Assembly (NCBI GenBank): GCA_002773395.1
Contig: PFBI01000001.1
Span: forward strand, 1 to 49,944
Direction of reading: 5' to 3'
From: Candidatus Kaiserbacteria bacterium CG10_big_fil_rev_8_21_14_0_10_47_16
GTDB lineage: Bacteria > Patescibacteriota > Minisyncoccia > Phycocordibacterales > UBA918
DNA length: 49,944 bases
Shown: positions 1 through 47,077 of the stretch, piece by piece
Layout: the number at the start of each line of letters is the position of its first letter
Position numbering within the stretch: position 1 is the stretch's first letter
The notes under the pieces: generated by a model
Database searches by the model: none
What the model saw: only the letters and a program-made list of their open reading frames with translations
What the model was told of the DNA's origin: nothing
Translations under genes and position numbers: made by a program

Positions 1-1080
<1,080 letters not shown>

Positions 1081-1280
1081 TGGACAACGCATAGGTCTTC
1101 GGACCGCGTGCTAATTGGTCGATATTTTGTGCCTCAATTGAGCACAAAATACAAAGCTATAATGATGACGCTCAGAATTCATTTGACACAGGGAAAGACC
1201 GGAAGAGGATAAGACAAAAGAGAGTTTGTCTTTAGCATGATGCAGATACGTAAGTGATAGGTAATTTTCATATATACAAA

Positions 1281-8277: not shown

Positions 8278-8359
8278 TCGTACTGAAGTTGGTGTCGCCA
8301 TCATATCCCGCACTCGCTATTTTGAATGACGATGGATGCGCTATAATACGCGTATTAGT

Positions 8360-31618: not shown

Positions 31619-31646
31619 TTGGCAAATCATGTATAATTTATTTCAA
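31609..31646 (+). promoter_or_regulatory. gmd promoter, leaderless-type spacing
   Basis: TTGGTG (31609-31614), 17 nt, TATAAT (31632-31637), then 8 nt to ATG 31646. Confidence 0.65.
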
Positions 31647-37365: not shown

Positions 37366-37428
37366 GTGTTTTCTATAACCAAGGGAAGCCTGATTTGGTT
37401 TTATTATAATATGCTATAGTTTTCGGAT

Positions 37429-41385: not shown

Positions 41386-41442
41386 CTCTCAAAAATACTT
41401 TTTTACCACGCAATGGATTTTGTGGTACTATAGGTGCTCATT

Positions 41443-43971
41443 ATGTCAATTTTAGACCGGTTTTTCGGCCCCACATACGAAAAAGAGATTAAACGCATTC
41501 GACCTATTGTCGGGAAGATCAATGATCTCGAAGATGATTTTGTTGGTAAAACAGACGCAGAGCTGGCGGCCTGCACAACAGCCCTGAAAGAACGTGTTAC
41601 GGGCGGTGAATCGCTCGACAGTATTCTTCCTGAGGCGTTTGCATTGGTACGTGAGTCCGCAAAGCGCACACTTGGCCTTCGTCACTACGATGTGCAACTT
41701 ATTGGTGGTGTTATTTTACATTCAGGCAAAATAACAGAAATGCGAACGGGAGAAGGGAAGACATTGGTAGGTACGCTCCCTGCGTACCTTAATGCACTCA
41801 CGGGTACTGGTGTACATGTGGTAACGGTAAATGATTACCTTGCGCGTCGTGACGCCGTCTGGATGGGTCAGGTGTATGCACTCCTTGGACTTTCTCTTGG
41901 CGTGATTAATCAAAACGCATCATATATATATGATGCGGATCATAAATCAGTTGACGCACTTCGTGACGAAGAAGGTTCATACAAAGTGCTCTACGAATTC
42001 CTTCGTCCGTGTTCACGTAAGGAGGCGTACGCTGCCGACATCATCTACGGTACAAACAATGAGTTTGGATTTGACTACCTTCGCGACAATATCGAGTTTG
42101 ATGCAGAAAACCTTCGACAAGGACACCACGCATACGCCATTATCGACGAGGTCGACTCAATTTTGATCGACGAGGCGCGTACACCACTCATTATCTCTGC
42201 TCCGGCAGAAGAGTCTGCAGATCTCTACACCACGTTTGCGCGCATTGCCGACCGTCTTAAAAAGGAAGAACATTTTGTTGTGGATGAAAAGATGAAAAGC
42301 GCGACGCTCACGGATGCAGGTATTGAGGAAGCAGAGAAGATGCTTGGTATTGAGAATATTTATACAGACAAAGGTATCAAGTACGTACACCACCTTGAGA
42401 CTGCCGTGCGCGCGAAAGCACTCTACAGTAAAGACAAAGAATACGTTATCCGAGATGGGGAGGTTGTTATTGTGGATGAGTTTACGGGACGTATGCAACC
42501 AGGGCGACGATGGTCAGACGGACTCCATCAAGCAGTTGAAGCGAAGGAAGGCGTTGTGATCCAAAAAGAGAGTCGGACGTACGCATCGATTACGTTCCAG
42601 AACTACTTCCGTATGTACGACAAACTTGCGGGCATGACAGGAACAGCGCTCACCTCTACCGAGGAGTTTTACTCTGTGTATGGTCTTGAGGTAATTCCTG
42701 TGCCAACGAATCAAGAAGTACAACGTATTGATGGGAACGATCAAATCTTTCAGACCGAACGCGGTAAGCACACTGCGGTGATTCGCAAGGTGAAGGAACT
42801 CAATGAAAAAGGTCAGCCCGTACTCATTGGTACCGCTGCTATTGATAAAAACGAGGAGCTCTCTGCAGCACTGACGAAGGCAGGGATTGTGCATGAAGTA
42901 TTGAATGCTAAGAATCATGAGCGTGAAGGAGAGATTATTGCAGGCGCTGGAAAGAAAGGTATGGTTACGCTCGCGACAAACATGGCTGGTCGCGGTGTCG
43001 ACATTAAGCTCGGTGGGATAGATGCCACGAAAGAGGAAGCTGATGAGGTACGTTCGCTCGGAGGACTCTTTGTTCTCGGTACAGAACGGCATGAAGCGCG
43101 TCGTATTGATAACCAGCTCCGCGGTCGTTCTGGCCGTCAGGGAGATCCGGGAGAGACGCAATTCTTCGTTTCGATGGAAGATAACCTCATGCGTGTCTTT
43201 GCGGCAGATACCGTAAAGAACATGATGGGACGTCTCGGCATTCCGGAAGACCAACCAATTGAAAACAACATCATCACACGGTCACTGGAGTCTGCACAGA
43301 AGAAGATTGAAGGCTTTAACTTTGACGCCCGCAAGCACGTTCTCTCATACGATGATGTGCTCAACAAACAGCGCCACGTTATGTACGAGAAGCGCGTCAA
43401 GCTGCTTACGGGTGACGCATCCGACGTAGACGCGCTCCTTATGGAGGTTATGGAGGCACGTGCGGATATACAAGCGATCATCGAACAAAAGAAGAAGGAA
43501 TTTGGAGAGCAGGAATGGACAGTTCTTGCACGTCGCCTCATGCTCCATGTGTACGATATCCTCTGGGTAGAACACCTTGAGATTATGCAATATACGCGTA
43601 CAAGCGTAAGTCTCCGCGCGTACGGTCAGCAAGATCCACTCATTGAGTATCGGAAGGAAGGAAACCGACTCTTTAAAGAAATGCAAAATGCAGCCCTCTC
43701 TCGTATTGCAGAACTCATTCCAAACGTACAGAAGGCAGCAGTTGAGAAAGAAGACGCTGAACTCCGCAAGGCACATGCAGCCGCACAGCGAGCGGGAGGT
43801 GCAGAGAACACAAGTGGTGACAGCAAGGCCGCTCACCAACAGGCAGTAAAGAAACATCAGTACGGAAGAAACGATATGGTCACCATTACAAATGGTACCG
43901 AGACGGAAGAAATGAAATATAAAAAAGCAGAAGGCCTGCTTGAGACCGGTGAATGGACGATTAAGAAATAG
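41443..43971 (+). CDS. secA: Preprotein translocase subunit SecA
   Basis: MRTGEGKTLVGTLPAYLNALTGTGVHVVTVNDYLARRDA, IIDEVDSILIDEARTPLIIS, NMAGRGVDIKLGG, QLRGRSGRQGDPG. Confidence 0.96.
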   Translation: MSILDRFFGPTYEKEIKRIRPIVGKINDLEDDFVGKTDAELAACTTALKERVTGGESLDSILPEAFALVRESAKRTLGLRHYDVQLIGGVILHSGKITEMRTGEGKTLVGTLPAYLNALTGTGVHVVTVNDYLARRDAVWMGQVYALLGLSLGVINQNASYIYDADHKSVDALRDEEGSYKVLYEFLRPCSRKEAYAADIIYGTNNEFGFDYLRDNIEFDAENLRQGHHAYAIIDEVDSILIDEARTPLIISAPAEESADLYTTFARIADRLKKEEHFVVDEKMKSATLTDAGIEEAEKMLGIENIYTDKGIKYVHHLETAVRAKALYSKDKEYVIRDGEVVIVDEFTGRMQPGRRWSDGLHQAVEAKEGVVIQKESRTYASITFQNYFRMYDKLAGMTGTALTSTEEFYSVYGLEVIPVPTNQEVQRIDGNDQIFQTERGKHTAVIRKVKELNEKGQPVLIGTAAIDKNEELSAALTKAGIVHEVLNAKNHEREGEIIAGAGKKGMVTLATNMAGRGVDIKLGGIDATKEEADEVRSLGGLFVLGTERHEARRIDNQLRGRSGRQGDPGETQFFVSMEDNLMRVFAADTVKNMMGRLGIPEDQPIENNIITRSLESAQKKIEGFNFDARKHVLSYDDVLNKQRHVMYEKRVKLLTGDASDVDALLMEVMEARADIQAIIEQKKKEFGEQEWTVLARRLMLHVYDILWVEHLEIMQYTRTSVSLRAYGQQDPLIEYRKEGNRLFKEMQNAALSRIAELIPNVQKAAVEKEDAELRKAHAAAQRAGGAENTSGDSKAAHQQAVKKHQYGRNDMVTITNGTETEEMKYKKAEGLLETGEWTIKK

Positions 43972-43973
43972 GA

Positions 43974-44029
43974 TCAACCACATACAAAAACCTCCCGAAA
44001 ACAATCGGGAGGTTTTTGTATGTGGTTGA
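43974..44029. terminator. 25-bp perfect palindromic bidirectional terminator
   Basis: TCAACCACATACAAAAACCTCCCGA-AAACAA-TCGGGAGGTTTTTGTATGTGGTTGA. Confidence 0.9.
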
Positions 44030-44054
44030 CGAGGGGGCGCCTCTCGCGTACTGT
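44026..44054 (+). promoter_or_regulatory. Promoter, leaderless-type spacing
   Basis: TTGACG (44026-44031), 17 nt, TACTGT (44049-44054), then 6 nt to ATG 44061. Confidence 0.7.
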
Positions 44055-44060
44055 AGCGAT

Positions 44061-44399
44061 ATGAGAATCATTATCCGAGTACTCGTTACTGCAGTGGCCC
44101 TCCTCCTCGTGGCACGCTTCGTTCCAGGTGTCTTTATTGACGACCTGTACACTGCCCTCATTGCTGCGGTACTCCTCGGACTCCTTAACCTTATCGTTCG
44201 TCCAATACTCATTATCCTTACATTGCCGATAACTATCCTTACCTTTGGACTTTTCACCTTCGTGATCAATGCGGCACTTTTCTTCTTTGTCGCGTCCTTT
44301 GTCGAAGGCTTCACGGTCGCAGGATTTATTCCAGCACTTATCGGCTCATTCCTCGTTGCGGTAGTAAGTACCATTGCGCATAGTTTTCTTAAAGAGTAG
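44061..44399 (+). CDS. Phage holin family 4-like small membrane protein
   Basis: MRIIIRVLVTAVALLLVARFVPGVFIDDLYTALIAAVLLGLLNLIVRPILIILTLPITILTFGLF. Confidence 0.82.
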   Translation: MRIIIRVLVTAVALLLVARFVPGVFIDDLYTALIAAVLLGLLNLIVRPILIILTLPITILTFGLFTFVINAALFFFVASFVEGFTVAGFIPALIGSFLVAVVSTIAHSFLKE

Positions 44400-45528: not shown

Positions 45529-45556
45529 TTGCAGATGCGGCTTAAAAAGGTAGTAT
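45529..45556 (+). promoter_or_regulatory. gatB promoter, leaderless-type spacing
   Basis: TTGCAG (45529-45534), 16 nt, TAGTAT (45551-45556), then 6 nt to ATG 45563. Confidence 0.6.
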
Positions 45557-46981: not shown

Positions 46982-47077
46982 GGAGTGGATAGCTCGGATT
47001 GTCTGGACGAGTTACTCACAGTAGGGTAGCACTTTTTGCCGAGATCCTCTTTTTATACATGGTAGTATGTAGATGTT

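Follow-up and report, generated by a model that had tools for sequence, protein, structure and literature searches.

TA-led leaderless genes have been described in Actinobacteria and Deinococcus-Thermus (Zheng et al. 2011, PMC3160421), and organisms with scarce Shine-Dalgarno (SD) motifs and no CCUCC in the 16S rRNA include Ca. Campbellbacteria, Wolfebacteria, Absconditabacteria and Flavobacteriia (PMC10783764). As far as the accessible text of these two sources goes, it is already known that TA-led genes occur in other phyla and that the anti-SD has been lost, together with scarce SD motifs, in a few Patescibacteria. In addition, the distal operon genes of Sulfolobus are reported to be SD-led, as cited in the accessible part of PMC3160421. 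We analysed the first 49,944 nt of contig PFBI01000001.1 of Candidatus Kaiserbacteria bacterium CG10_big_fil_rev_8_21_14_0_10_47_16; this whole stretch is called the window below. The sequence evidence makes it very probable that the standard layout of first genes in this lineage is a sigma-70-type promoter with its -10 box placed for a leaderless or near-leaderless mRNA, translation starting directly at the AUG and later operon genes being coupled.

The locus lies downstream of secA, whose end at 43971 is followed at 43974-44029 by a perfect hairpin with a T run. Its features are as follows.

43974..44029, + strand: secA terminator, a perfect inverted repeat of 25 bp (arms 43974-43998 and 44005-44029), the 3' arm containing TTTTT
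44026..44031, + strand: -35 element TTGACG (5/6), the first four bases (TTGA) lying within the 3' arm of the secA terminator
44049..44054, + strand: -10 element TACTGT (TANNNT), 17 nt past the -35 element and 6 nt ahead of ATG 44061
44061..44399, + strand: gene for a PF04020 (Phage_holin_4_2-like) membrane protein, Pfam E 3.5e-32, predicted to be leaderless

The arrangement TTGACG-17-TACTGT-6-ATG at 44061 had been proposed in an earlier sequence-only reading, and its coordinates and spacings proved exact to the base. As a promoter it is less secure, however: the -10 box agrees with TATAAT at only three of six positions and lacks TGn, and the TTGA of the -35 element is shared with the terminator arm, so that taken on its own the pair is a weak promoter call. 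A short inverted repeat, GAGGGGGCGCCTC, lies between the -35 and -10 elements at 44030-44045, and might be an operator or due to chance.

We compared the PF04020 gene in 30 genomes of the family, in which protein identity is 43-67% apart from the own copy. ATG 44061 stands at the aligned position in most orthologues; their alignments begin at the same Met, which gives good support to the start codon. The upstream DNA has otherwise diverged, yet 22 of the 30 orthologues have a TANNNT that ends 6-9 nt from the ATG (500 shuffles: mean 3.2, maximum 9), and 16 have it at exactly 6 nt (mean 0.8, maximum 4). In the 22 orthologues the match to the -35 element at a 17-nt spacer averages 2.91 of 6, compared with 1.49 at control spacers. 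These values argue strongly for selection on where the box stands with respect to the ATG. The gatB gene behaves similarly, with TANNNT at 6-9 nt in 17/30 orthologues against a shuffle mean of 3.7. It could still be supposed that the site at 44061, considered alone, is a chance TANNNT beside the terminator and that the gene is read through from secA, as the poor fit of TACTGT and the overlap of the -35 element with the terminator arm would allow. Both the conservation of the box with its -35 element at 17 nt and the terminator standing between secA and the site, which folds at -44 kcal/mol compared with -11 for shuffles (z -12), speak against this possibility, and we regard it as unlikely.

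The sequence-only reading had also listed six further genes of the window with start-proximal -10 boxes, and all of these coordinates and spacings were confirmed.

8342..8347, + strand: -10 box TATAAT of a TraD/TraG/HerA-like ATPase gene, 12 nt before ATG 8360
31632..31637, + strand: -10 box TATAAT of gmd, 8 nt before ATG 31646
37415..37420, + strand: -10 box TATAGT of an O-antigen ligase-like gene (Wzy_C), 8 nt before ATG 37429
41426..41431, + strand: -10 box TACTAT of secA, 11 nt before ATG 41443
45551..45556, + strand: -10 box TAGTAT of gatB, 6 nt before ATG 45563
47063..47068, + strand: -10 box TAGTAT of a gene for a 251-aa protein, 9 nt before ATG 47078

The label 'HTH' given to the last protein could not be confirmed, because no Pfam match was found for it.

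The distribution of the -10-to-start distance, by which the proposal could be checked beyond single genes, was then taken from about 297 of the 681 kb of the genome. Genes were called with the first ATG of each ORF as the start, the start codons thus being our own calls on metagenome assemblies; a good -10 box was TANNNT with at least 4/6 matches, and dinucleotide shuffles served as background. At 51 of the 146 likely starts of transcription units a good box ends 6-9 nt upstream of the ATG, compared with 11.9 +/- 3.4 expected (z 11.4), whereas a control offset of 26-29 nt gave 10 with 12.7 expected. The hexamer offset peaks at 6 nt, and TANNNT lies about 10-12 nt before the start beyond chance. 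Operon-internal genes show a much weaker signal (7/65, with 3.1 expected), and E. coli K-12 none (0/73 in 147 kb, same pipeline). Meanwhile, the excess in the sampled sequence is specific to ATG, with 366 boxes at 6-9 nt and 310 at 21-24 nt, while GTG, TTG and CTG show none (ratios 0.97-0.99). Such a strong preference for AUG is expected of leaderless mRNAs and therefore supports the leaderless reading.

A good proximal box was found in only about one third of the likely first genes; in the remainder the start may be misassigned, the box weaker or a leader really present. From this fraction, and from the 16 of 55 divergently facing first genes that have a -10 box at 6-9 nt, it might be argued that the promoters are real but that transcripts usually start further upstream with ordinary leaders, the proximal boxes being secondary. 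We consider this improbable, because no -10 peak was seen at any other offset, the proximal box is kept in orthologues, and both SD motifs and the anti-SD are absent (see below). Moreover, several genes have a strong terminator whose end is 12-58 nt upstream of the ATG, the -10 box lying between the two, so that a normal leader would have no room or would be very short.

The elements around the boxes follow the grammar of promoters. Matches to the -35 element peak at the 17-nt spacer, where at least 4/6 is reached in 13% of cases against about 4%, and in 29% in lineages with CCTCC; TGn precedes the -10 box in 38%, compared with 11-18% elsewhere. When the -35 element was scored by the best of three spacers no enrichment appeared, and it was the separate spacer tests that gave the 17-nt peak. 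Together with the bias to first genes, these properties indicate that the element is a promoter. An alternative is that the boxes are not promoters and reflect an AT-rich, unstructured context for translation initiation, acting through bS1 or by easy landing of the ribosome. The ambiguity of AT bias in bacteria has been raised by Nakagawa et al. (PMC5397173), the upstream regions here are A/T-rich, and multi-S1 proteins of the bS1 type occur in all 21 genomes checked. Nevertheless, a positioned hexamer that peaks at 6 nt, carries a TGn extension and has its -35 element exactly 17 nt away speaks against this alternative, as does the much weaker signal in operon-internal genes, which also need to be translated; we consider it improbable.

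A T directly before the ATG is found in 62% of first genes and in 84% of close internal genes (44 genes) of the own genome, and its frequency is high across the phylum sample too. It was rejected as a mark of transcription initiation because operon-internal genes show it as strongly. Extended codon-anticodon pairing is known from E. coli, and is a possible reason for this T.

The window begins with the 3' part of the 16S rRNA gene (positions 1-1080), the sole 16S gene found in this 99.7%-complete assembly, and its end reads as follows.

1067..1084, + strand: 3' tail of the 16S rRNA, GGATTAATTCCAATTGGA instead of GGATCACCTCC..., lacking the anti-SD core (the match to Rfam RF00177 runs to model position 1533)

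Helix 45 has been preserved, but GGATTAATTCC takes the place of GGATCACCTCC. None of the 30 genomes showing the helix-45 pattern, which are mainly the own genome or its family, has CCTCC, nor is it present in any 16S tail that could be read from the order's other families. Within the same class the anti-SD is kept in some orders (G340, G389, G133), degenerate in others (G147, G332, G406) and lost in a third set (G101, G356, G176), giving a graded series of tails from CACCTCC through CACTTCT, CACTACA and CATTTCT to complete loss; most other tails listed for the phylum are GGATCACCTCCT. As all the genomes are metagenome assemblies, the loss might be suspected to be an artefact of assembly or annotation. 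The tail of the family, however, recurs exactly in 30 stretches of contigs from named GTDB species, including many Ca. Kaiserbacteria, and in genomes of the family that come from numerous studies; with helix 45 intact and related lineages showing graded loss, an artefact is extremely improbable. The remark in the sequence-only reading that leaderless initiation would dispense with the anti-SD is borne out by the tail in the window and by the readable 16S sequences of the family and order.

In the own clade SD motifs precede 3.8% of first genes and 1.1% of internal genes, which is no enrichment over the 0-2.3% at control positions. An altered SD that would pair with the new tail was also sought and rejected: complementary 5- and 6-mers are not clearly enriched, and only AT-rich ones such as ATTAA are slightly raised. 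No support was found for a link between anti-SD loss and the loss of bS21, which was detected in 13 of 21 genomes with no clear pattern. The placement and conservation of the boxes, the 17-nt -35 spacing and the absence of SD and anti-SD can be read directly from the genomes.

Some other observations concern the RNA genes of the window. A palindrome just past helix 45 (1071-1084; L107, L105, L079, L103) co-varies with the anti-SD state, having the form CTCC...GGAG where CCTCC is kept and being of the TTCAATTTGAA type or a longer hairpin where it is lost; conceivably this is a conserved hairpin serving 16S maturation. No 23S rRNA gene was found after the 16S gene within positions 1-2200, where a terminator-like repeat and protein genes lie instead, and the rRNA genes appear to be unlinked here. 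At 2113-2300, fragments of the 3' half of a tRNA (ctcgaaaggtcctaggttcg and cccctagtgcccgcacaaatac) recur immediately downstream, separated by additional sequence, an arrangement resembling an insertion scar at a tRNA.

To place the layout in the phylum, TATAMT-N6-ATG was counted against TATAMT-N21-ATG, which keeps the same codon phase, in 80 whole genomes. The N6 count exceeds the N21 count in 76 of them. The N6/N21 ratio is 3.5 in the own genome, 3.6 in the family and 3.4 in the order; it is 2.2 in the other class members lacking the anti-SD, 2.1 in those with a degenerate one and 2.0-2.3 in lineages keeping CCTCC. Because the enrichment extends to the last of these, the leaderless layout would be phylum-wide. 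One genome of the phylum, G129, differs from nearly all others in that the reversed control GTANNNNNNTMATAT outnumbers the pattern (84 to 29). The signal is somewhat stronger where the anti-SD is lost than where it is kept (Mann-Whitney p 0.004, not corrected for phylogeny). The simple proposition that the anti-SD was lost and mRNAs therefore became leaderless was rejected, since CCTCC lineages (G293, G247, G182) also show the peak; leaderless promoters in Patescibacteria that retain the anti-SD are not simply a response to its loss. The simplest history is probably that leaderless promoters spread first and that the anti-SD became dispensable later. The fuller scenario, that the order has abandoned the SD/anti-SD system in favour of leaderless first genes and coupled later genes, and that ancestral leaderless promoters made the anti-SD dispensable with graded intermediates surviving within one class, we put forward as moderately likely.

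Taken together, box position, conservation, promoter grammar, ATG specificity and terminators close to the ATG support the leaderless reading. Under this reading, transcription would start 7-8 nt after the -10 box, at the A of the start codon or 1-3 nt before it. The original proposal placed the start at or next to this A; as a refinement, the 6-9 nt spread in the own genome agrees better with leaders of about 0-3 nt than with strictly zero. At first genes the 5'-terminal AUG would be directly recognised by a ribosome loaded with initiator tRNA (70S-type initiation), which is the most likely route given that the 16S anti-SD core has been lost in the order. Later genes of operons are likewise devoid of SD motifs and often lie within 20 nt of the upstream stop codon; they would be translated by re-initiation or by coupling to that stop codon. 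The actual transcription start, the 70S-type initiation and the coupling are what we infer from the arrangement of the genomes. The same layout would operate, more weakly, across Patescibacteria.

Patescibacteria account for much of bacterial diversity, and hardly any of them can be cultured. Their start codons may therefore be misplaced by gene finders whose training was on bacteria that use SD motifs. A class in which the anti-SD is variously kept, decaying or lost, and in which a leaderless signal can be measured, allows a test of how the SD system is lost and of whether leaderless initiation comes first. In the literature covered, which took in few subscription journals and preprints, we found no report joining the leaderless layout with anti-SD loss or describing leaderless architecture in Patescibacteria; for this group the listing in PMC10783764 was all that came up on either subject.

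Compared with the known systems, the TA-led genes of PMC3160421 have, in the accessible text, TANNNT/TAtaaT with its first T about 12 nt upstream of the start, as here, and the TG extension noted there for low-GC groups has its counterpart in the TGn found here; that text, a survey of 953 bacterial genomes, names no Patescibacteria. Actinobacteria and Deinococcus-Thermus are generally held to keep the anti-SD, whereas it has been lost in this order. The organisms of PMC10783764 share a 16S tail without CCUCC and no SD enrichment with the present lineage; as far as its accessible parts go, that study gives no promoter or leaderless evidence for Patescibacteria, while the loss in readable 16S sequences is order-wide here and accompanied by start-proximal promoters. 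According to the accessible text of PMC3160421, distal operon genes in Sulfolobus are SD-led, unlike the internal genes here, which have no SD signal. The archaea Sulfolobus and Saccharolobus nevertheless combine leaderless first genes with a missing CCUCC core much as this lineage is predicted to do, although with archaeal promoters and an archaeal ribosome.
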